Assembly (NCBI GenBank): GCA_963669155.1 | Contig: OZ022583.1 | Location: forward strand, 3,401,357 to 3,465,356 | DNA: 64,000 nucleotides | From: Arbacia lixula | Taxonomy: Eukaryota > Echinodermata > Echinoidea > Arbacioida > Arbaciidae | Direction of reading: 5' to 3' | Shown: one piece after another, positions 34,428 to 49,361 of the stretch | How positions within the stretch are numbered: position 1 is the stretch's first letter | Layout: each line of letters starts with the position of its first letter | Translations under genes and position numbers: made by a program | The notes under the pieces: generated by a model | The model's input: only the letters and a program-made list of their open reading frames with translations | What the model was told of the DNA's origin: nothing | Database searches by the model: none

Positions 34428-34462
<35 letters not shown>
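34428..34462. repeat. (TA)n tract bordering the minus-strand PLE
   Basis: A pure TA run sits directly against the terminal sequence of the minus-strand PLE (GTACAGTGCACATATG begins at about 34461). Confidence 0.9.
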
Positions 34463-34464
<2 letters not shown>

Positions 34465-34744
34465 AGTGCACATATGAAATAACAATAAATACATCAACAA
34501 AAAGAACATAAGTTATGAAGCGATAAACATATAGACGGCAGAAATATACAAAGTACAAGGTAGAAACGGTAGAAATCAATCGTATCATACTAATCAATAT
34601 ACAAAAATATACAAGAAATGGTCAATTACCTTCCCGATTTTGGTGTACGTATTGGAATTGTTGTGTGTCTCGTGTGCTTCAGCTATAGTGAAGTGATATG
34701 GCGTGTTTGGGGGTCAGTGTTTACTTAGGCGTGAAAATGGATGG

Positions 34745-35064
34745 TCATTGGTCTGCATTGATACCACGTGGTCTTAAGGTTTGTAGTTTGGATATCCAAT
34801 GAGAATCTCGTTTCATGATGGTGTCGTGGTGCTTTGTTTTGACTATTTCGATGCCAGTGATGTTGATGTTTTGAACTGAGTGCCCCGGGAGATTGAAGTG
34901 TATAGTGTATGGTAGAGTCTTGCTGTTTGGCTTGTTTTTGTTGTAGTTGGTAACTTCAGATCTAGTGTTATTTAGGCGTGTGTTTAGCGTTGTCTCTGTC
35001 TTTCCTACGTATTGCATATTGCATTTAGTGCATGTGAGAAGGTATATTGCCCAGGATGATTTGC
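34745..35064 (-). pseudogene. GIY-YIG endonuclease domain of PLE-1, cut off from its RT
   Basis: The minus-strand frame gives KSSWAIYLLTC, then CNMQYVGKTETTLNTRLNNT and a C-terminal RDSHWISKLQTLRPRGINADQ-type end. It aligns along its whole length with the PLE-2 C-terminus. The IYLLTC/QYVGKT pair is the GIY-YIG signature, R in TRLNN is the conserved arginine, and the Glu position before SHWIS is Asp (RDS) where PLE-2 has RES. It stops abruptly at the nested insertion, so it can no longer be made as part of the full protein. Confidence 0.85.
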
Positions 35065-36960
35065 CAAATAAAAAGAGCTGTGGAAAGGATGACATCGATA
35101 ATATTCTTCTCAAATATATCTCACCTCAAATAATAGATCCCTTGACACACATCTTTAACACTTCTCTTATAACAGGTACTTTTCCAAACGAAATGAAAAC
35201 AGCCAAAGTGATTCCAATACACAAAAATGGTAGCTCGACAAATGTTGAAAATTATAGACCAATTTCTCTTCTCACAGCTTTCTCCAAAATCCTCGAAAAG
35301 ATAATTTACACCAGGACAATCTCCTTTCTTGAACAAAACGATATACTAAGTGAATCACAATACGGATTTAGATCTAAACGTAACACCACACACGCAATTC
35401 TCAATCTCATTAATAACGTTACAAAGTCCCTTGACTCCCACTTACACACCGTAGGTATCTTTTTAGATTTTTCGAAAGCTTTCGACACTATTGACCATAA
35501 AATACTCTTGAACAAACTAGCACACTACGGAGTCAGAGGCATAACACTCAACTTATTTAAAGACTATTTGTCACGACGGAAACAGTATGTGTCGTTACAG
35601 GGCAACAATTCTTCTCTCAAAAATATTCAATGCGGCGTTCCCCAGGGATCTACATTTTAGATAACATAACAAAATTAATATCTAGGAATATTGGAATACT
35701 AAATAAAATGAAACAGTATTTCCCATATCAAACACTTCTCACATTATACTCATCCCTCATCCTACCGCACCTCAATTATGGAATTATAGCATGGGGTAAC
35801 TCCGGAAACACGCAATTAGACAAACTATACCTCCTCCAGAAAAAGGCAATGAGAATTATATTTGACACACATTTTCACGCGCATACTGACAAATTATTTT
35901 TTGAAAGTAACACACTAAAAATACATGACCTATATCTCTACAACTTAGCTCAATTAATGTTCCAACGTGAGCATAATGAATTACCAACAATCATAAATAG
36001 GTTATTTTCAATAAACAACACATATCACACATACCCCACCCGCCAGTCAACACTCTTCCATTTACCCCACACACGGACTCATCTTGCGAACAGATCATTC
36101 ATATATACTGGACCAAAATACTGGAACTCTCTCAGCCCCAACATAAGACAATCTCTCAGCCTAAACATATTCAAATCACAACTCAAAAAAGACATGTTAA
36201 AATCATATATTGAACAACAAGATCAACAGTAAAACTATATATGTCCATAACTGCACACAGATATTACATGATACGTGGTGACGTCTCCGCATAGCGTTCA
36301 TAATCTTCTCTTTTAATATCCAACAATCACAGGACTCACAATCACCTTCAAAACCAAACTCCTCTCCTTACCCCCCCCCCTTCCCCCTCCCTATCCCCTG
36401 TCCCTCCCCCCCCCTCTCTATCACTCTCTTTGTTTAAGCGGTGCTCTTAATGTATTTTTATTTGATTATTTTCTATATCTTTTATTACGACGACAACAAT
36501 CACAGCGATTTTTTCTTTTTTTTTTTCAAAATTCGACACTTAATATTTTATGGTTTAGCTGTAAACTTTAAGAGAAAAAATTGTGTAAATTAATCTTTTT
36601 CTTGTTGTTTGTTTCTTCTCCATGTTTACCATTATGTTGCGTTAAAGAAAAATGAATCTAATCATGTATCACGATAATTTCTTTTTTGTTTTGTCCGTTT
36701 GTTTGTTGTTGTTAAAGAAAAAAAAAAGGTTTTGCACATATTACATTATTTCTATTTATTTTCATTCGGGGGTCCAATACACACAAGCCCTGCTTCTTTT
36801 GGACCCCTCCACAAAAAAAAAAAATATATCTCTATAAATGAATTGTTTTTTTTTTATTATTATTTCTTGTTTTGTTATAATTGTATTTGAACTTTTTGCA
36901 TGTATAAATGGTTTGATGTCTTTTTTTTGTGGAAAAATAAAGTTGAATCTTGAATCTTGA
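35065..36960 (+). mobile_element. CR1/L2-type non-LTR retroposon nested in PLE-1, 5'-truncated and internally deleted
   Basis: The first frame (to about 35650) encodes the N-terminal half of a reverse transcriptase: FPNEMKTAKVIPIHKNG, NYRPISLL, SQYGFR, FLDFSKAFDTIDH and CGVPQGS. The second frame (about 35655-36232) encodes the C-terminal half, LTLYSSLILPHLNYGIIAWG to YWNSLSPNIR. The block that should join them, containing the catalytic YADD box, is missing, so the element is not functional. The 3' UTR ends in TTGAATC tandem repeats (about 36941-36960), typical of CR1/L2 tails. The junctions with PLE-1 show no obvious target-site duplication. Confidence 0.85.
35070..36232 (+). pseudogene. Non-LTR reverse transcriptase remnant, catalytic region deleted
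   Basis: The RT motifs described for the surrounding element occur in two overlapping frames. Translation of the first runs through PQGS and then out of homology at about 35660. The second resumes at ITKLISRNIGILNKMK, well past the palm active site. About 130-150 residues are absent compared with the usual spacing in this class. There is no endonuclease domain because the 5' end is truncated. Confidence 0.85.
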
Positions 36961-36961
36961 A

Positions 36962-39195
36962 TTGATGTGATCGCGTATTTTGAAATTCTGTCCCGTGGAG
37001 GTGCTTTTGAACGTGGTTGTATCTTGAATGTGTTGATGAAGTGAGCATTTTTTGGCGTTGCATTTGTAGAATCCTAGTTGTGCCGTGGAATTGTTTGTCT
37101 CAGCCAAAGGGGTGGTTGAGTTGTTGGCGTGGTTGTTGTTGCTGGTGGTTGTGTGGTTGTTGTTGTTTGCGTGATTGTTGTTGTTTGTCCCGATGTTCGG
37201 TGCTTTGGCGTTAACAAGTAGGTCGCGGAGTGATTTACTGCGGCGGAATGATGTCATGGGAGCTCTCGGGAAGATGGTCTGTAGTGTATGGCATTGTTGG
37301 ATAAGTTGATAGTGTTTGTGGATGATTTTGGGTACTGCTGATGTGCCGGGTGTAAATGTGATAGAGAAGTGCACATTATTGGAAGCCTTCTTCTCCTTTT
37401 TGGTGAGGAGTTGGTCTCGGGGTATGTTGGCGGCTTTGTGTAATTGTCGACTGACCATGTTTGTGTTGTATTGACGATGTGTGAGATGTGCTTCTAGTTT
37501 GTTGAGATGATGGGTTGCTCTGTCCTGATTCGAGCAAATTCGTCTGATGCGGGTGGCTTGACTAAAAGGGATACTGCGGAAAGTGTGTTTGGGGTGGCAG
37601 GATGTTGGGAGAAGATACGTATGTTTATCTGAAGGTTTGTTGTACAGTTCTGTTTGGAGTGTTCCTTCTTTAAGTTGAAGTAGTGTGTCAAGGAAGCTGA
37701 CTTCCGAGTTAGAGTAGTTGAAAGTGTATTTGATCGAGTGATGTTTTCTGTTGATGGTGTCTTGGAATTTTGAGAGGAGTCGGGGAGAGCCAGACCAAAT
37801 GAACTGAATATCATCTATGAAGCGTTTCCATGATCCTGCGATGATAGTATGGTGTCTCGAGTTAAGTATGTCCTTCTCAAGTTCGCCCATGAAAATGTTG
37901 GCATAAGAAGGTGCGACTGGTGTACCCATCGCAGTCCCTTCGATTTGTAAATAATGTTGGTTCTGGAACTGGAAGTTGTTAAGTGTAAGAACTAGTTCTA
38001 GAAGGCGCATGAGTTGATCTGTAGGTGGATGTTGTGTGTTTCTTGTGTTGAGTGCAGTTTTACATGCTGCCATGCCTTCCCCATGGGGGATATTTGTGTA
38101 AAGAGACGTGACGTCTGCCGTTACCAGTATGGTGCGTTCTGGGAAAGGGGCATGAGAGGTGTTTAGACTCTCCACATGATTGAGGAAGTCTGTTGTGTCT
38201 TGGAGGTAGGATGGGAGTTTTTCTACTAGCGGGTGGAGGTGGTAGTCTAGATATTTTGATATCTGTGCTGTTGGGCAGGAGCATCCTGACACTATGGGCC
38301 TTCCAGGGTTGTTAGGTTTGTGGATTTTAGGGAGGAAGTACATGTTGGGACAGGATACGCTGGAAGGGACCAAGGCTTGTTTGATTTTTTTGTCTTCGTC
38401 AAGTAGGTCAATTGCTTGCTTGACCTGGAGTAGGTGTTTTGGTGTCGGGTTCGAGTCAAGTTTTTTGTATATGGTTTCGTCGGAGAGTTGGCGTTCTCCT
38501 TCAGCAATATAGTCTTTGGAGGACATGACTACAACTGCTGATCCTTTGTCTGCGGGTTTTATGACAATGTTGGGGTTCTTTCTGAGTCCGTCAAGTGCTT
38601 TCCGTTCAGGGCGCGACAAGTTGTCTATGAAAGCGTTTCTTTCGTACTTGGCTACTGCATCTCTTGTGTCTTTCTCGACGTTTTCCAAGAATATTTGTAG
38701 GCGCGGGTTATTGATGGTGGGGATCCATTTACTTCTGACTGGACATGGGAACGCCTGTCTGCTTTGGCTGGATGTGCTTTCGACTTGTGTCGGTGTACTC
38801 TGGGAAAGAGGAGGATCTGGGATGTCGTTAGAGTCTTGTCTGAGACGGCTCGTGGTTGGGGTGGTTTGATCTGTCTGTGACTGTTTTGTTGAGAAGTGTG
38901 CCCTCACATACATTTTGCGTTTGAGTTCGGTGAAATCTGCTTGTAGTTGCGAGTGATCAGTCTGTGCTGGTGTAGGGCAGAAAGATAAGCCTTTTGAGAG
39001 GAGTGTGGTTTCTGCTTCCGATAGTTCATAGTCTGATAGGTTGACTACTATTGTCGGCTGGCGGTTGTTGTCTTCTGTTTCGGCCATTGATGGTTCAGTG
39101 GGTGTTGCATTCTTTTTTTGCGGTTCTTCGTCATATATGTGTGATCCGAAGAGGGGGGTTTGTGAAGAGGGCCGTTGCAAGACATTGTATACCAC
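36962..39195 (-). pseudogene. Reverse transcriptase region of PLE-1
   Basis: The minus-strand frame is open from about 39195 to the nested insertion. RT landmarks in order: NIVIKPADKGSAVVVM, MYFLPKIHKPNNPGRPIVSG, TADVTSLYTNIPHGEG, GTAMGTPVAPSYANIFMGEL, and RFIDDIQFIW (the catalytic box, with IDDI where the YxDD motif is usual). A Pro/Ser/Thr/Asn-rich region and an Asn-rich low-complexity linker flank the RT core. The first ~30 residues come from terminal-repeat sequence, so the natural start may be the MAETEDN at about 39090. After 36962 the frame continues into foreign insertion sequence and loses its endonuclease. Confidence 0.88.
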
Positions 39196-39204
39196 TAGTT
39201 ATAG

Positions 39205-39240
39205 GACCAAGCTTTCGGGCACCTGCCCTTCATCAGGATC
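39205..39240 (-). ncRNA. Hammerhead-ribozyme-like motif in the PLE-1 terminal repeat (minus-sense copy)
   Basis: On the minus strand: stem I strand GAUC, core CUGAUGA, stem II GGGC/GCCC with an AGGU loop, GAAA, a two-base GC in place of stem III, then UU and the stem I partner GGUC. It is identical in the folded part to the + strand copy at 39658-39693. Hammerhead motifs with minimal stem III are known in PLE pseudo-LTRs; self-cleavage here is inferred, not shown. Confidence 0.6.
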
Positions 39241-39657
39241 TGGAATCAATAACATTAACGACAGTACAGTACAGTACAGTGCACATATGAAATAAGAATA
39301 AATACATCAACAAAAAGAACATAAGTTATGAAACGATAAACATATAGACGGCAGAAAACGCCTAAGTAAACACTGACCCCCAAACACGCCATATCACTTC
39401 ACTATAGCTCAAGCACACGAGACACACAACAATTCCAATACGTACACCAAAATCGGGAAGGTAACTGACCATTTCTTGTATATTTTTGTATATTGATTAG
39501 TATGATACGATTTATTCCTACCGTTTCTATCTTATGCTTTGTATATTTCTGCCGTCTATATGTTTATCGTTTCATTACTTATGTTATTTTTGTTGATGTA
39601 TTTATTGTTATTTCATATGTGCACTGTACTGTACTGTCGTTAATTTTATTGATTCCA

Positions 39658-39693
39658 GATCCTGATGAAGGGCAGGTGCCCGAAAGCTTGGTC
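39658..39693 (+). ncRNA. Hammerhead-ribozyme-like motif in the PLE-1 terminal repeat (plus-sense copy)
   Basis: Stem I GATC (39658-39661) can pair with GGTC (39690-39693). The core CTGATGA is at 39662-39668. Stem II GGGC (39670-39673) pairs with GCCC (39678-39681). GAAA is at 39682-39685. Only GC separates it from the UU cleavage context. Stem I uses one G-U pair. This matches the minimal-stem-III, type-I-like layout described for PLE hammerheads. Confidence 0.62.
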
Positions 39694-39754
39694 CTATAAC
39701 TAGTGGTATACAATGTCTTTCAATGGCCCTCTTCAAAAACCCCCCTCTTCGGAT

Positions 39755-39764
<10 letters not shown>

Positions 39765-39800
<36 letters not shown>
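39765..39800. repeat. (CA)n-(TA)n tract between PLE segments
   Basis: A short CA run followed by a pure TA run separates the PLE-1 terminal repeat from the start of the PLE-3 endonuclease fragment. Confidence 0.9.
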
Positions 39801-39802
<2 letters not shown>

Positions 39803-40251
39803 CACTGCAGAATAATTGCCTCACCAGCAGCGTTGTGTACCAGGCGACTGTAACACGGCAAGACAATTCTAAGGCAGAAACTTACATCGGCCTCACAGAG
39901 AATACATTCAAAACGCGCTACAATGCCCACATCTCCAGCTTCAAAAATGAAACAAAACGGAACGCCACAACACTCAGCGAGTATATTTGGAGGCTAAAAG
40001 ACAACAATGTTCAGCACACCCTCAAATGGAAGATTATCGCAAATGCCAGAGCTTACACACCGACGAGTACAAGATGCGAACTTTGTCTGGAAGAAAAGTT
40101 CCTCATAATCCACAAGCCACTTTTGTCCACACTCAACAAAAGAAACGACCTCGCCAGCACATGCCGTCACAAAAGAAAGCACCTACTATGCAACTTCTCC
40201 AACAAACGATCACTTTATTGTAAACTGGGTCCTCACGAAACAGTTCTGTAA
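39801..40251 (+). pseudogene. GIY-YIG endonuclease end of a third Penelope-like element (PLE-3)
   Basis: The frame ending at 40251 gives CPLQNNCLTSSVVYQATV, then ETYIGLTENTFKTRYNAHIS, TLSEYIWRLK, CELCLEEKFLI and a C-terminal CRHKRKHL. The VVYQATV and TYIGLT pair is the GIY-YIG signature, and the flanking Cys residues match the zinc-binding positions typical of Penelope-type endonucleases. It differs strongly from the endonucleases of PLE-1 and PLE-2, so it belongs to a different PLE lineage. No RT is attached; the fragment is a 5'-truncated relic between two (TA)n tracts. Confidence 0.82.
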
Positions 40252-40282
40252 AACTTTATGTAGTAAGTTCCACCTATATTTA

Positions 40283-40286
<4 letters not shown>

Positions 40287-40324
<38 letters not shown>
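40287..40324. repeat. (TA)n tract bordering the left end of PLE-2
   Basis: A pure TA run directly abuts the outer end of the PLE-2 left inverted repeat. Confidence 0.92.
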
Positions 40325-40327
<3 letters not shown>

Positions 40328-41015
40328 GCGAAAAGAGAGTCTAGGAGCTGGGGCGTAGCTGGACCTTCCACGTTTAATTGAAAGCTTTCGGCTGTTAGGC
40401 CTTCTTCAGTCAAGTTCTGAAGTATAAACATTAACAAATACACTGTATAAGCAAACATATATGGCAATATCAATCAAATCAAATCAAATCAAATCAAGCA
40501 TCAAAAACATAGCAAAAATTAGGTATGAAAAATGTTTTAGAATAAATGGTTTAAAGTGTTTTACCTTGCCTGGCGGCGGTTGTCTGTGCTGTGGGTATGC
40601 TTGTTAGGATTTGTGTGTAGTGTGTTTGATGAGTGGTGTGCAGTGAAGTGTGGGTTGTTGACCTGTGACATGGGTGTTACTTGTAGTGTCATGACCTGTG
40701 TCTGTGGGGAGCATCGGTATACAAATACATTGTAGTGTGGTATATTTTCCACACATACGTACATAAGAACAAGTATATATATATATATAGATGATTTGTC
40801 ACGATTATCTTCATATGCACATGTGCATGAAGTATATATATATATATGTATATATATAATTTGACATGATTATGGTATTTTGCACGCATACTTGAAATAT
40901 ACATGTATACAATTTGGCATGAATCTGTTCTTATCCATACACATACACATACATCAGATATACACAATTTGACATGACTATGCACATCATATATATGTAA
41001 TAGTAATACTATTAC
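40322..41015 (-). repeat. Left inverted terminal repeat (pseudo-LTR) of PLE-2
   Basis: This is the reverse complement of about 45093-45774, with differences mainly in the TA-repeat lengths. It contains a (TCAAA)n microsatellite at about 40474-40495, a hammerhead-like core at 40378-40413 and AT-rich palindromic sequence near the ORF. Confidence 0.88.
40378..40413 (-). ncRNA. Hammerhead-ribozyme-like motif in the PLE-2 left arm
   Basis: On the minus strand: UUGA, CUGAAGA, stem II GGC/GCC with a CUAACA loop, GAAA, GC, UU, UCAA. The four-base stem I (UUGA with UCAA) differs in sequence from that of PLE-1 but keeps pairing. The seventh core base is A in place of U; this position is known to tolerate variation. 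Confidence 0.6.
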
Positions 41016-41037
41016 CAGAGCAACTATATCAACGATT

Positions 41038-43959
41038 ATGGCCACTATCAATGACAAACACAGCAACACTACGATCCACCAACTACGGAAATGCACCACG
41101 AAACTTGAACGCTATCGACTGCACGCCAAATACCTGAACCTATACAAGGACCTAGACATTGTCCCCAAAGGCCTGCTGATTAAGAAGCCATTCAGCTTTT
41201 CCAAAGATGAATCAACTGACAACAAGTGGACACTGGCACTGTGGAACGCCTCGCGCCAACTACGAGACATTACAATCCACGCCTTAGAACGCAGAACTGA
41301 AGATCTACTGACGCAGAGAGAGGAGCTTAAAAAGGAATTATACGAACTAAGTACAGCCATGTGCTACCACGAGACAATTAATAAAATCAACCAGGACTAC
41401 AAAGGGACTGAAAAAAGGCTCATCCTGACGAAAGAAGGAAAGCTGAAAAGGGATGTAATGAACTGTAAAGAGATTAAGAAACGTATAAGCAACATCCCCC
41501 ACTTAAACAACGACAAACCACCGAATGTACCACAAAAGAGAAAGCAATGCAGACGATTAAGGAAAAAACAATATAGCAAACGAAGATCACATTCTCCAGA
41601 CAAGAACAACAACAACGTACATGCAACTCCAGAAGTAGATAACAAACAAGCTGAAAAGAACACCAAAGTATCGGTAATTAACCTATCCAATTATCCTCTG
41701 TCACAAACAGAAACAAGCCTACTACAGAAAGGGCTGAAATTCTGCCCCACACCGCCCCAGGTAGATCCGCTAGAAATCAAAAGAAACTTAGAAGCCTTTG
41801 AAAGGCAAATGAAACTTAAAGTCCACTTCGCAGATAAATCACAAACGGGTAATAACCCAAGACCAACGCCAACGCCAACTCCAAGCCAAGCCACAACTCA
41901 AGAGGAGAAAAACACCCAGCCACCTATTATTAAACAGATAAACACATGGACACCGAGAGTCGATAACCCATATTTACAAATATTCCTTGAAAACGTAAAG
42001 AAAGACACAACAGCATGTACGGACAGCTACAACACAACAACACGCAGAGACAATCTAACAAAAGGAGAACGAAAAGCCCTCAAAACCCTAAAATCAAACG
42101 ATGATATTATCATAAAACCGGCGGACAAAGGGTCATCGGTAGTCATAATGTCCAGAGATGACTATGTATCAGAAGGTATACGGCAACTATCCGACAAAAA
42201 CACTTACCGAGAACTAACACAAGACCCCACTCTATTCCACCTGAACAAAGTTCAGAAAGTAGTCAAAGAACTCGACGTAGACCCACACATACAAAAAGGT
42301 CTCATACCCAAAACTATCGTCTGCCCCAACCTCTACTTTCTCCCAAAAATCCACAAGCCAAACAATCCAGGTCGACCAATTGTCTCAGGCTGCTCATGCC
42401 CCACAGCACAAATCTCAAAATACCTAGATTTCTACCTACGCCCCCTCACCGAAAAATTACCCTCTCACACAAAAGATACAACACACTTCCTAAACCACAT
42501 CGAAACAATAAACACACACTCTTACCCACTCTCCCCAAGAACAATACTGGCAACAGCAGACGTATCTTCCCTATACACAAACATACCCCACGGAGAAGGC
42601 ATTGAAGCCTGCCAGGAAGCCCTCAACACCAGAGATGAACAAAATCCACCCACAGACCAGTTAATCCGACTACTCGAACTAATTCTTAAACTTAACAACT
42701 TCCAGTTCAATGGAAAACATTACCTGCAAATTGAGGGTACAGCAATGGGAACACCGGTTGCCCCCACCTACGCAAATATATTCATGGGCCGCCTAGAGAA
42801 ACAAATACTGAACACAACACAATCACCCACCCTGGCAAACTCATGGAAACGGTACATAGACGACATCTTCTTCCTTTGGACAGGCTCACCCAGAACACTA
42901 TCCAAACTGCAAGAAAAAATGAACAACATACACCCAACTATCAAATTCACATTCGAGTCATCCAATGACAAGGCTCACTTCCTCGATGTCTCACTACAAC
43001 TATCCAACAATCGAATACACACAGAACTATACACCAAGCCAACAGACTCACACACATACCTCCTGCCATCCTCCTGCCACCCCAGCCACTCCCTCAAAAG
43101 CATACCATACAGCCAGGCACTACGAATCCGAAGAATCTGTTCAACACCTGATCGTGAAGACCACCACCTCAAACAACTACAACATAACTTTGAAGCCCGA
43201 AATTACCAACCACACACTGTCAGACAACAAATACAAAAAGCTAAAGAAAAGCCCAGAGAACAACTACTCAAATACACACCACATTCTGAAAAACACAACG
43301 ACACCGTCTTCTGCACAGTACCCTTCTCCCCCGCCACTGCCAAAATCCCAAGCATAATAAAAAAACACTTTCCCATCCTACAACAAGGAAACACAACCAA
43401 AACCATCTTCCCCAAACCCCCAACAACGTCGTACAGACGAGGACGCACGCTGCGGGACCTGCTCGTAAAGGCGGGACACCCATTCCCCCGCCAAAACGAA
43501 AACGAACACGAGTCGCCCATGCCCAATGGGTTCTTCCAATGTCCATCCCAAAGATGCATAATCCATAAACACATAACAAACACTTCCAATTTCAAAAGCA
43601 CAGTCACTAACCAAGAATACCCCATAACCTCACACATCACATGCAAATCCAGTTGGATAATATATCTCATCACCTGCACTCAATGCAACAAACAATATGT
43701 TGGCAAAACAGAAACCACACTTTACACACGCTTCAACAACACACGATCCGAAATAAAAAACTTCCACTCGACATCACAACACAAAACACTACCATACACA
43801 GTACATTTCAATCTTCCATCCCATTCAGTAGACAATGTCCGAATTACCGGTATCGATTCGATTCATAAGAAATCCCGCCAAACAATCCTCCACCGAGAAT
43901 CCTTCTGGATATCCAAACTCAAAACCCTACAGCCAGGTGGGATCAATGTCGACCAATAA
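41038..43959 (+). CDS. PLE-2 polyprotein: reverse transcriptase plus GIY-YIG endonuclease, 973 aa
   Basis: The ORF is open from ATG (41038) to TAA. Residues 1-200 are basic, with a Lys/Arg-rich patch near 155-190 (RKQCRRLRKKQYSKRR) suited to nucleic-acid binding or nuclear import. The RT core spans about 330-660: DDIIIKPADKGSSVVIM, LYFLPKIHKPNNPGRPIVSG, TADVSSLYTNIPHGEG (about 506), GTAMGTPVAP (about 568) and the catalytic YIDDIFFLW (about 606). The C-terminal 100 residues are the GIY-YIG endonuclease: IIYLITC, QYVGKTETTLYTR and the candidate catalytic Glu in HRESFWISKL. RT and endonuclease together are the hallmark of PLEs, which prime reverse transcription at the target site. No stop or frameshift was seen, so it may still be active. 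Confidence 0.92.
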   Translation: MATINDKHSNTTIHQLRKCTTKLERYRLHAKYLNLYKDLDIVPKGLLIKKPFSFSKDESTDNKWTLALWNASRQLRDITIHALERRTEDLLTQREELKKELYELSTAMCYHETINKINQDYKGTEKRLILTKEGKLKRDVMNCKEIKKRISNIPHLNNDKPPNVPQKRKQCRRLRKKQYSKRRSHSPDKNNNNVHATPEVDNKQAEKNTKVSVINLSNYPLSQTETSLLQKGLKFCPTPPQVDPLEIKRNLEAFERQMKLKVHFADKSQTGNNPRPTPTPTPSQATTQEEKNTQPPIIKQINTWTPRVDNPYLQIFLENVKKDTTACTDSYNTTTRRDNLTKGERKALKTLKSNDDIIIKPADKGSSVVIMSRDDYVSEGIRQLSDKNTYRELTQDPTLFHLNKVQKVVKELDVDPHIQKGLIPKTIVCPNLYFLPKIHKPNNPGRPIVSGCSCPTAQISKYLDFYLRPLTEKLPSHTKDTTHFLNHIETINTHSYPLSPRTILATADVSSLYTNIPHGEGIEACQEALNTRDEQNPPTDQLIRLLELILKLNNFQFNGKHYLQIEGTAMGTPVAPTYANIFMGRLEKQILNTTQSPTLANSWKRYIDDIFFLWTGSPRTLSKLQEKMNNIHPTIKFTFESSNDKAHFLDVSLQLSNNRIHTELYTKPTDSHTYLLPSSCHPSHSLKSIPYSQALRIRRICSTPDREDHHLKQLQHNFEARNYQPHTVRQQIQKAKEKPREQLLKYTPHSEKHNDTVFCTVPFSPATAKIPSIIKKHFPILQQGNTTKTIFPKPPTTSYRRGRTLRDLLVKAGHPFPRQNENEHESPMPNGFFQCPSQRCIIHKHITNTSNFKSTVTNQEYPITSHITCKSSWIIYLITCTQCNKQYVGKTETTLYTRFNNTRSEIKNFHSTSQHKTLPYTVHFNLPSHSVDNVRITGIDSIHKKSRQTILHRESFWISKLKTLQPGGINVDQ

Positions 43960-44028
43960 TAAAATCCACACACCAACACATCAGACACACTAAAACCTTT
44001 GTTCTACATACATATATTTAATGTGTCT

Positions 44029-45092
44029 GTAAAAATATAATAACAACAAATGACACATATATATCATGTGCATATTCATGTGAAATGTATATCTGATGTA
44101 TGTGTATGTATATGGATAAGAACAGATTCATGCCAAATTGTATACATGTATATTTCAAGTGTGCATAATATCATAATCATGCCAAATTATATATATATAC
44201 ATCTATACGTCATGTACATGTGTATATGAAGATAATCGTGACAAATCATCTATACATATATATATATATATATATGCACATGCTTTTTTTGTATGTATGT
44301 GTGGAAAATATATCACACTATTTATATACTGATGCCCTCCACAAACACAGGTCTTGACACTAAAAGTAACATCCGTGTCACTTTTAAATACCATATTATT
44401 ATTACTATTAAATATAATAACGACAAATGATACATATATATGATGTGCATATTCGGGTCAAATTGTGTATATCTGATGCATGTTAATGTGTATGGATAAG
44501 AACAGACTCATACCAAATTGTATACATGTATATTTCAAGTATGTGTGCATAATACCATAATCATACCAAATTATATATACCTACACTTCATGTACATGTG
44601 TATATGAAGATAATCGTGACAAATCATTTATACCTAAATATATACATACATATGTATATGTTTTTTTGTATGTGTGTGTGGACAATATATCACACTATTT
44701 GTATACTAATGCCCTCCACAAACACAGGTCATATTAGTATTACTATTACATATATATGATGTGCATAGTCATGTCAAATTGTGTATATCTGATGTATGTG
44801 TATATGTATGGATAAGAACAGATTCATGCCAAATTGTATACATGTATATTTCAAGTGTGCATAATATCATAATCATGCCAAATTATATATATACATCTAT
44901 ACGTCATGTACATGTGTATATGAAGATAATCGTGACAAATCATCTTTACATATATATATATATATATGCACATGCTTTTTTGTATGTATGTGTGGAAAAT
45001 ATATCACACTATTTATATACTGATGCCCTCCACAAACACAGGTCTTGACACTAAAAGTAACATCTGTGTCACTTTTAAATATTATATTAGTA
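44029..45092 (+). repeat. Three tandem partial pseudo-LTR units of about 335-370 bp
   Basis: Units begin near 44029, 44403 and 44738, and the fourth (about 45090) is the start of the right arm. Each contains GATGTGCATA, GTATGGATAAGAACAGA, TACATGTATATTTCAAGT, GAAGATAATCGTGACAAATC, GTGTGTGGA.AATATA.CACAC and GCCCTCCACAAACACAGGTC. Open frames inside simply translate the repeat and are not genes. Confidence 0.85.
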
Positions 45093-45774
45093 TTACTATT
45101 ACATATATATGATGTGCATAGTCATGTCAAATTGTGTATATCTGATGTATGTGTATGTGTATGGATAAGAACAGATTCATGCCAAATTGTATACATGTAT
45201 ATTTCAAGTATGCGTGCAAAATACCATAATCATGTCAAATTATATATATACATATATATATATACTTCATGCACATGTGCATATGAAGATAATCGTGACA
45301 AATCATCTATATATATATATATACTTGTTCTTATGTACGTATGTGTGGAAAATATACCACACTACAATGTATTTGTATACCGATGCTCCCCACAGACACA
45401 GGTCATGACACTACAAGTAACACCCATGTCACAGGTCAACAACCCACACTTCACTGCACACCACTCATCAAACACACTACACACAAATCCTAACAAGCAT
45501 ACCCACAGCACAGACAACCGCCGCCAGGCAAGGTAAAACACTTTAAACCATTTATTCTAAAACATTTTTCATACCTAATTTTTGCTATGTTTTTGATGCT
45601 TGATTTGATTTGATTTGATTTGATTGATATTGCCATATATGTTTGCTTATACAGTGTATTTGTTAATGTTTATACTTCAGAACTTGACTGAAGAAGGCCT
45701 AACAGCCGAAAGCTTTCAATTAAACGTGGAAGGTCCAGCTACGCCCCAGCTCCTAGACTCTCTTTTCGCATTTA
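45093..45774 (+). repeat. Right inverted terminal repeat (pseudo-LTR) of PLE-2
   Basis: Plus-sense counterpart of 40322-41015. It contains a TTTGA tandem repeat at about 45600-45624, the hammerhead-like core at 45684-45719, and the outer end TTTTCGCATTTATA. Confidence 0.88.
45684..45719 (+). ncRNA. Hammerhead-ribozyme-like motif in the PLE-2 right arm
   Basis: TTGA (45684-45687) pairs with TCAA (45716-45719). The core CTGAAGA is at 45688-45694. Stem II GGC (45696-45698) pairs with GCC (45705-45707). GAAA is at 45708-45711, then GC and TT. The layout is the same as at 39658-39693 with different stem sequences. Confidence 0.62.
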
Positions 45775-45827
45775 TATACTTCTGGAGCAACCGCACTTAT
45801 CATGTCTAAGTTGAGAACTATTGCACT

Positions 45828-45829
<2 letters not shown>

Positions 45830-45902
<73 letters not shown>

Positions 45903-48260: not shown

Positions 48261-49361
48261 ACAAGATCTACACACCGTGGCATATGAATACAGATTAGAC
48301 TGACACATAGTGTTGCATATTAAACAACACTACGTATTGACAGTATCTATCTCTGTGAATTTTGCTAAAATAAGTACACTCAAGTATAGTCTTTGTTGTC
48401 TTGATATGGGTATGTGGTTATGAATGAACAGCCTTTGTGGCTATTTGTGAATAGAACACATAAATAACAAACAAATGACGATTAAACTTTATAAACAATA
48501 TGTCTGTTCATTATCGATTTTAGCCTCAGGTTTCAAGGTAATCGCTGCCTTTGCGACTTTGTGACAATTTGAAGCCTGGTGGCTCTCGAATCTGGGTGAT
48601 GCCTTTTTCCAGCTAGTTATAAAAGCCGATCGACTGAAACAAATGCTGGTTCTTTGTTCTTGGCCAATTTCAAGAGTCCGCGTGTTTCTACCTGTGCCCA
48701 GTAGAAACACAGTACCCGTTTCAGAGAGGGTTCGTAATGGATCCACGGGTAGCTTTGGTAACATTTGGTTGAAACCGAATTTTCTGCATTTTAGTTTCTA
48801 CTACGGGAAAGTGAGGGTGATTGGGGCTAACCCACTCCCTCATACCCCCGTTGTCTACGCCCCTGCTTACTTTTTGTATCACACGTGACCGAGTGTTGCA
48901 GCGCGGCGCACGAAACGTCGTGATTATTACAGGGGATCATCATGATCATTCTCGATTCATTGTTGACCTCACATTGCGAAACAAACGATATCACAAGCGA
49001 TTATCTCCGCAATGTGTAACATATCTAGCAATGACAACACAATTATGTTAGATAGCAGAACCTCACGCATTCCAACAACATCAGAAAGGAGAACACCAGG
49101 CATGCCAGGTAAACAGAAAGCCTCAACCATTCTAATAACAATCACACTCGTGCGCGTCGGTGATTAGTTCCAGTGTCCAATCCCTTCTTGTTGAGTGTAG
49201 AATGCGACCAAGTGTGCTTCCCGCCTTCTTCTTATTGATGAGGGAACCGGCAGTGGTCTCTATTCATTAATATCAAACTGTATTTTCCTAATTTAATACA
49301 TGCGACATACATATGACTGTATTTTACTGATGTGTTGATGTTGACAAGCTAATATACCACA

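Follow-up and report, generated by a model that had tools for sequence, protein, structure and literature searches.

The four hammerhead-like sites found in the window (that is, the whole 64-kb stretch analysed here, C8:3401357-3465356 of a 607 Mb genome) are putative minimal type I hammerheads of two PLE families, PLE-1 and PLE-2, and belong to a known kind. The reading of these sites as minimal hammerheads and a snap-back origin of the inverted arms on which they lie are considered, together, the best explanation, and a probable one. In addition, a tail on one of the two inverted pLTRs is close to a rule in this genome, and the resulting pattern of one long and one short end, seen in many young foldbacks at (TA)n, must be explained by any model of PLE insertion. 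The steps that complete such insertion have been called not yet validated (PMC11167929), and the role of the hammerhead in PLEs has been called a mystery (PMC7761336). Articles with PMC numbers are cited here from the available parts of their text.

Four hammerhead-like sites in two PLEs

The sites listed in a preliminary description of this DNA are present, letter for letter, at the positions and on the strands given in Table 1. All four contain the core (CUGANGA and GAAA, with U16.1 and H17) and the other parts said to be shared, namely a stem II hairpin, a GC dinucleotide and UU. Stem I is open towards both ends and reads, as had been claimed, GAUC/GGUC in PLE-1 and UUGA/UCAA in PLE-2, while stem II is GGGC/GCCC in the PLE-1 sites and GGC/GCC in those of PLE-2. 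Ahead of stem II, right after CUGANGA, all four have one additional unpaired A, which the preliminary description had missed.

Four such structured sites are beyond chance. A scan of the 64 kb for CUGANGA, a stem II of at least three pairs, GAAA, U-H and a stem I of at least four pairs gave 4 matches, whereas 150 dinucleotide shuffles gave 0.013 on average (148 without any match and two with one, the maximum). The search with a custom minimal-stem-III model that had been suggested as a check recovers the same four sites and nothing else up to an E value of 1, the covariance model being partly circular, as its ten family sequences include one PLE-1 and one PLE-2 copy from the window. The Rfam hammerhead models, suggested together with it, do not match the window: there were 0 Rfam matches at the gathering cut-off over its whole length, and no hammerhead family was listed for positions 39100-39800 and 45650-45760 up to E=10, nor was any listed in a scan of six further loci. 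Genome-wide, the bare core is near chance, since a loose core pattern gave 580 matches against 496 in the control. Family-specific patterns are informative, with 161 matches for a tight pattern (the first 100 of them listed), 86 for exact PLE-1 cores and 201 for a 26-base PLE-2 flank beyond the hammerhead (up to three mismatches), in each case against 0 in the control.

The assignment of both elements to PLEs is borne out by their reading frames. The PLE-2 ORF carries RVT_1 (E 5.5e-10) and GIY-YIG (E 3e-05) domains, both above the curated cut-off; in the PLE-1 ORF, whose 3' side is interrupted by a LINE-like insertion, RVT_1 was found and GIY-YIG was not. The hallmarks of PLEs (pLTRs, a tail and inverted pLTRs) are also present. 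The arms of PLE-2 are inverted repeats with 100% identity between 40319-40856 and 45241-45778 and 99% between 40835-41014 and 45085-45264, and the hammerheads do lie, as had been proposed, in both terminal arms of this element. The same claim does not hold for PLE-1, in which both hammerheads are in a foldback on the 5' side of the ORF. By comparison with relatives (L014, L086), PLE-1 spans from 39785 leftwards to about 34451, with the LINE-like insertion (about 35063-36959) splitting it; on the left, at its 3' end, it breaks off some 20 nt short of where its own hammerhead would be. PLE-1 arms are older, those of the window copy being 94.5% alike.

Several other features of the window were observed. 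The LINE-like insertion (35063-36959) ends in TTGAATC repeats. The region from the PLE-2 stop codon to the right arm (44086-45264) holds several diverged tandem repeats with a spacing of about 300-350 bp. Finally, positions 48872-49030 hold a decayed sequence related to L049-L051, with a hammerhead core that has degenerated; it is probably the remnant of another PLE family.

Table 1. Coordinates of hammerhead-like motifs, PLE parts and (TA)n tracts; positions are those of the window unless a locus is named
Feature	Position	Strand	Basis or remark
PLE-1 3' part	34451..35062	-	beyond LINE-like insertion; truncated before its hammerhead; adjoins (TA)n
PLE-1 ORF, reverse transcriptase part	36960..39198	-	RVT_1 E 2.5e-10; open frame runs on to 36832
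PLE-1 hammerhead, 5' side of PLE-1 ORF	39205..39240	-	pattern and covariance model
PLE-1 inverted arm	39358..39785	+	'short' outer end against (TA)n
PLE-1 hammerhead in inverted (foldback) arm	39658..39693	+	pattern and covariance model
(TA)n at outer end of PLE-1 arm	39766..39800	.	
PLE-2 left inverted arm	40319..41014	-	'short' outer end at 40319 against (TA)n
PLE-2 hammerhead in inverted left arm	40378..40413	-	pattern and covariance model
PLE-2 ORF, reverse transcriptase and GIY-YIG endonuclease	41038..43959	+	from first ATG; frame open from 40978
PLE-2 right arm	45085..45834	+	includes tail 45779-45834; 'long' outer end against (TA)n
PLE-2 hammerhead in 3' arm	45684..45719	+	sense to ORF; pattern and covariance model
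(TA)n at outer end of PLE-2 long arm	45829..45865	.	
PLE-3 hammerhead-like motif	L029 861	-	
PLE-3 hammerhead-like motif	L030 857	-	
PLE-3 hammerhead-like motif	L031 4341	+	
PLE-3 hammerhead-like motifs	L032 948 and 4461	+	
PLE-3 hammerhead-like motif	L033 854	-	
Five 362-bp tandem units, each with PLE-2 hammerhead	L039 641-2484		C7:20512140-20513983

Pairing and conservation of the motif

Pairing was assessed in an alignment of ten sequences (PLE-1, two forms of PLE-2, PLE-3, L049, L051, two sites of L052 and two older PLE-2 relatives), which amount to about five independent families. The L049, L051 and L052 rows were picked by eye among the first 100 of the 580 loose-pattern matches; as the loose pattern fixes the core and not stem I, their cores were selected and their stem I was not. 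That the pairing of stem I is kept while its sequence changes, as the preliminary description had claimed, is upheld across families: the inner two pairs form in all ten sequences, with five and four pair types, and the outer two in eight and four of the ten. Over stem I and the first pair of stem II, 84% of the cells are paired, compared with 54% after shuffling and 3-49% when the partner is slid by one to three columns. Cells changed on both sides number 16 against 5.8 in the shuffles, none of 500 shuffles reaching as many, and the number of pairs with a two-sided change (4 against 3.3) is not above chance in these ten sequences. The extra A before stem II is present in all ten, including the four rows picked by eye; the canonical hammerhead core, in which stem II follows A9 directly, is not known to have this base.

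Stem III is absent within a single molecule, where there is just an A15.1-U16.1 pair with two bases between. The resulting A-NN-U tetranucleotide, also missed previously, is self-complementary in nine of the ten sequences (AGCU in the window elements, AAUU or ACGU in other families, and not a palindrome in one of the two L052 sites), which fits a possible action as a dimer. The lack of helix III has been described for the PLE subtype of the hammerhead (PMC7761336), and minimal hammerheads are indeed known from the pLTRs of PLEs (PMC7761336, PMC6155905), as had been stated. As far as the letters go, the conserved core, the covarying stem I, stem II, U16.1 and the absence of G at position 17 in the copies compared all argue for the hammerhead reading. 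Fold predictions are mixed: both stems form in the isolated 36-mers (in PLE-2, with three of the four pairs of stem I), the minimum-energy fold of 161 nt of their own sequence is in neither case the hammerhead, and the predicted two-molecule fold differs from a dimer hammerhead.

Conservation was examined among the copies in this genome. For PLE-2, 98 sites chosen by the flank were read, from 60 small loci taken from the first 100 matches listed and from 16 sources first found through the motif; 20 were dropped (truncated, shifted or unalignable) and 78 compared, the five units of the L039 array being counted five times. The core is intact in 69 of these 78 alignable sites, among the matches listed. 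Over 23 haplotypes, position 17 is T in 13, C in 7, A in 3 and never G, and non-majority letters make up 5.6% of the core, 10.4% of the spacer and 27% of the 5' strand of stem I. The core with U16.1 differs from the spacer (13 of 253 against 36 of 345 cells non-majority, p 0.02), as does the core with U16.1 and stem II (p 0.0009), with both p values treating as independent cells that are not. The tetranucleotide is AGCU in 20 haplotypes and AACU, which is not palindromic, in 3. The core variant CAGAAGA occurs in L122 and L130. Loss of stem I pairing in other copies, which had been named as evidence against the ribozyme, gives a mixed picture. GAUC/GGUC is kept in 54 of the 55 PLE-1 sites read, the exception being in L063, but a 7-nt deletion disrupting stem I is common to three PLE-1 sites, that one in L063 and two in L012; in PLE-2, all four pairs are kept in just 13 of 23 haplotypes, although the inner two are kept in 19.

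A third family, PLE-3, has about 35% protein identity to PLE-2 and carries a related motif some 50 nt inside its short end (ATTC UUGAUAA A GGUC UAU GACC GAAA AU UC GAAU), with 6 matches in 5 loci; L022 has a related one. This motif retains stem I, stem II, the extra A and a palindromic A-AU-U, and C3-G8 is jointly replaced by U3-A8. Because the PLE-3 copies are 98.5-99.9% alike, the exchange may be a single event. A 2007 paper is said, from its entry in a reference list, to have the exchange of the hammerhead C3-G8 core pair as its subject, and the PLE-3 family amounts to a natural test of this pair. We found no hammerhead with U3-A8 in the available texts of the nine articles named in the next section, a coverage that does not extend to the main PLE hammerhead papers.

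Geometry and origin of the foldbacks

Many of the matches listed for the tight pattern form minus-then-plus site pairs. In PLE-1 and PLE-2, the outer ends of such insertions are of two types, 'short' (about 63-72 nt beyond the hammerhead cut) and 'long' (about 119 nt beyond it), while those of PLE-3 are found about 50 and 82 nt past the cut position, also at (TA)n. Nearly all outer ends abut (TA)n, the exceptions being two long ends, at C9:38613 (AT 17/26) and at C8:26616837, which is at an N run. The (TA)n matches the bases of the start site well for PLE-2 and for the PLE-1 short end, and weakly for the PLE-1 long and PLE-3 short ends. In a first set of 34 two-ended insertions, 32 have one short and one long end (15 PLE-1, 15 PLE-2 and 2 PLE-3); the other two, the window PLE-1, whose other arm runs into the ORF, and one decayed copy, cannot be classified. 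A second set was read after the rule had been fixed, and nine of its ten minus-then-plus pairs, among the matches listed, are again short and long (including the decayed C1:50560735, whose short end was classed at an earlier base); the remaining pair is long and long, with an N run at one end. Overall, 41 of the 44 scored foldbacks, in three PLE families, follow the rule, one is long and long, and two are unclassifiable, one-ended insertions (32 of the 40 PLE-1 loci L059-L098) and a same-strand pair in L086 having been left out of the scoring. The rule also holds for all seven foldbacks with missing hammerheads, namely five with a hammerhead in one arm alone (L071, L075, L082, L089, L090) and two small ones without any whole hammerhead (L115, L162). 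We found no count of long against short ends in the available texts of PMC11167929, PMC7761336, PMC3846280, PMC6155905, PMC7229834, PMC12910113, PMC11722881, PMC8969392 and PMC10085705, which do not include the main PLE hammerhead papers.

The (TA)n of PLE-1 short ends is followed by the same sequence (AAGTAAATATAGGT...) in L060, L064, L070, L077, L080, L085, L088 and others. The AAGTAAATATAGGT sequence also lies beside PLE-2 in the window, at about 40250-40290, and could reflect a shared composite or a preferred target.

Two observations bear on how the inverted arms arise. Within one PLE-2 copy, the arms differ at 10 of 4914 compared positions (11 copies), all 10 differences being private to that copy; between copies, the arms differ by 0-4.5% from the right arm of the window, mostly by 1-2.5%. 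Moreover, near-perfect palindromes with at most 30 unpaired central bases and arms of 35-1514 nt were found at 11 of the 24 loci scanned. It is because of these near-identical arms and tight palindromes that two independent primings were given up as the favoured origin, and both favour a single priming followed by snap-back. In the mechanism that we propose, the structure of the copies suggests that the (TA)n target DNA would prime reverse transcription at the internal 'long' site; the cDNA would then pass the uncut hammerhead, fold back on itself and copy the arm outwards, and, at the nearer 'short' site, this outward copy would be linked to the (TA)n end on the other side. As the near site would be met first on outward copying, each insertion would receive one long and one short end, and a fold beyond the hammerhead would give an insertion with a hammerhead in each arm. 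A hammerhead-bearing arm was copied from RNA that was uncut, or rejoined, at the hammerhead. Furthermore, because foldbacks without a hammerhead keep the end rule, the hammerhead is not needed in cis for insertion; the anole PLE hammerhead is likewise dispensable for insertion in vitro, and it cuts only with protein (PMC11167929). Run-off at the cleavage site was considered as a source of the inner junctions and rejected, the inner edges in L071, L075, L082 and L089 not being at the hammerhead cut.

A less likely origin is two-sided priming, in which both cut (TA)n 3' ends would prime on two dimer-held PLE RNAs, at the short site of one and the long site of the other, and the cDNAs would then be joined. 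In the anole PLE, the enzyme acts on both strands, cutting and extending each, and a dimeric form is predicted for it (PMC11167929). The two ends of a (TA)n target are alike because (TA)n is its own complement, and two RNAs from one source copy could also give identical arms. Some insertions even seem to point to two templates, at least sometimes: at U4, the arms of a single insertion (L130 and L131) carry different letters, each of which also occurs elsewhere, and the left arm of the L039 array on C7 is not contained in, and so was not templated by, its 362-bp units. However, independent and equal use of the two sites should give about half same-type pairs, and as just 1 of the 42 classified foldbacks is of this kind, strict coordination of the two primings would be needed. 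A difference in start site between the strands is, in addition, not reported in vitro in the available text of PMC11167929, and palindromes with small centres would require the two cDNAs to end at almost the same point, a few bases apart at most.

As for the hammerheads themselves, cleavage would need two of them pairing their A-NN-U tetranucleotides, probably helped by PLE protein, because the intramolecular stem III is reduced to an A-U pair plus two bases; it would cut read-through or tandem PLE transcripts, with position 17 as the expected place of the cut. We consider it improbable that the motifs are relics, no longer ribozymes, that are conserved for their part in a protein signal or a priming signal close to the start sites. 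It is true that losses in stem I or in the core recur (the deletion in L012 and L063, CAGAAGA in L122 and L130), that folding alone does not favour the hammerhead in its context, and that the anole ribozyme is dispensable in vitro, with no RNA-seq ends at its cut site (PMC11167929). By contrast, stem I and A-NN-U covary across families, and a position 17 that varies without ever being G in 23 haplotypes fits a ribozyme constraint. Far more doubtful still is a role of the inverted hammerheads in processing the RNA of both strands of the locus. The preliminary description had suggested that both strands could yield a self-cleaving RNA, and the sense hammerhead is present in the letters of both; bidirectional PLE promoters have also been proposed (PMC3846280). 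A transcript of both arms would, however, pair the ribozyme with its antisense: in a predicted fold of PLE-2 (200-nt pieces of each arm with a 200-nt piece of the ORF between), all 36 hammerhead nucleotides are paired with the antisense arm. The seven foldbacks with one or no whole hammerhead, which keep the end rule all the same, also argue against this use. We therefore read the antisense hammerhead as a by-product of copying, with no purpose of its own as a second ribozyme; judged by the near-identical arms and tight palindromes, the second arm seems to duplicate the first and not to maintain a ribozyme independently. Nor is the inverted placement new, inverted pLTRs having already been described (PMC3846280, PMC8969392); as these and the PLE hammerheads are both published, their sum is not a new function.

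In L039, the first four tandem units are identical over their full length and the fifth runs into the (TA)n end, the whole being a PLE-2 that has lost a large internal part and is bounded by outer ends of PLE-2. This array appears retrozyme-like. A rolling-circle source is possible, but tandem growth in place is as likely, because its junction has 5 matches, all at that one locus. The four window sites are not in a tandem array. Shorter units of 101-102 bp with a PLE-1 hammerhead (three copies at 684-988 and two at 1806-2006 of L040) lie in or beside foldback insertions.

We tentatively put forward, as one possible proposal, that insertion has a fixed geometry (priming at the far site, fold-back and closure at the near site, whatever the cargo) and that the hammerhead tolerates a natural C3-G8 to U3-A8 exchange in a young PLE family.

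Comparison with known systems

The closest known motifs are the minimal type I hammerheads of PLE pLTRs (Cervera and de la Pena 2014; Lunse et al. 2017), compared here via PMC7761336, PMC6155905 and PMC7229834. The type I layout, the near-absent helix III, the location in pLTRs and the expected action as a dimer are shared with them, whereas PLE-3 differs in having U3-A8 for C3-G8. In PAc, a Poseidon PLE of the green anole (PMC11167929), the hammerhead also lies just upstream of two internal start sites of reverse transcription, the target is AT-rich, both of its strands are used and an optional 'tail' lies between the two start sites. PAc, however, is described as tandem repeats, with a hammerhead that overlaps the start codon. 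Here, foldbacks at (TA)n are numerous (44 were scored), and about 240 nt separate the hammerhead cut from the PLE-2 ATG beyond it, as measured in the L039 units.

Inverted pLTRs, an optional tail on one of them and palindromes at the inverted junction are also found in the Penelope families of Adineta vaga, for which self-priming has been proposed (PMC3846280); the word hammerhead does not appear in the available text of that article, and the one-tail pattern has been counted here. Finally, the L039 array resembles the metazoan non-LTR retrozymes (PMC7229834) in its short tandem units with type I hammerheads, expression as circular RNA being a further hallmark of such retrozymes. The units of the array differ in being deleted PLE-2 copies inside PLE-2 ends.
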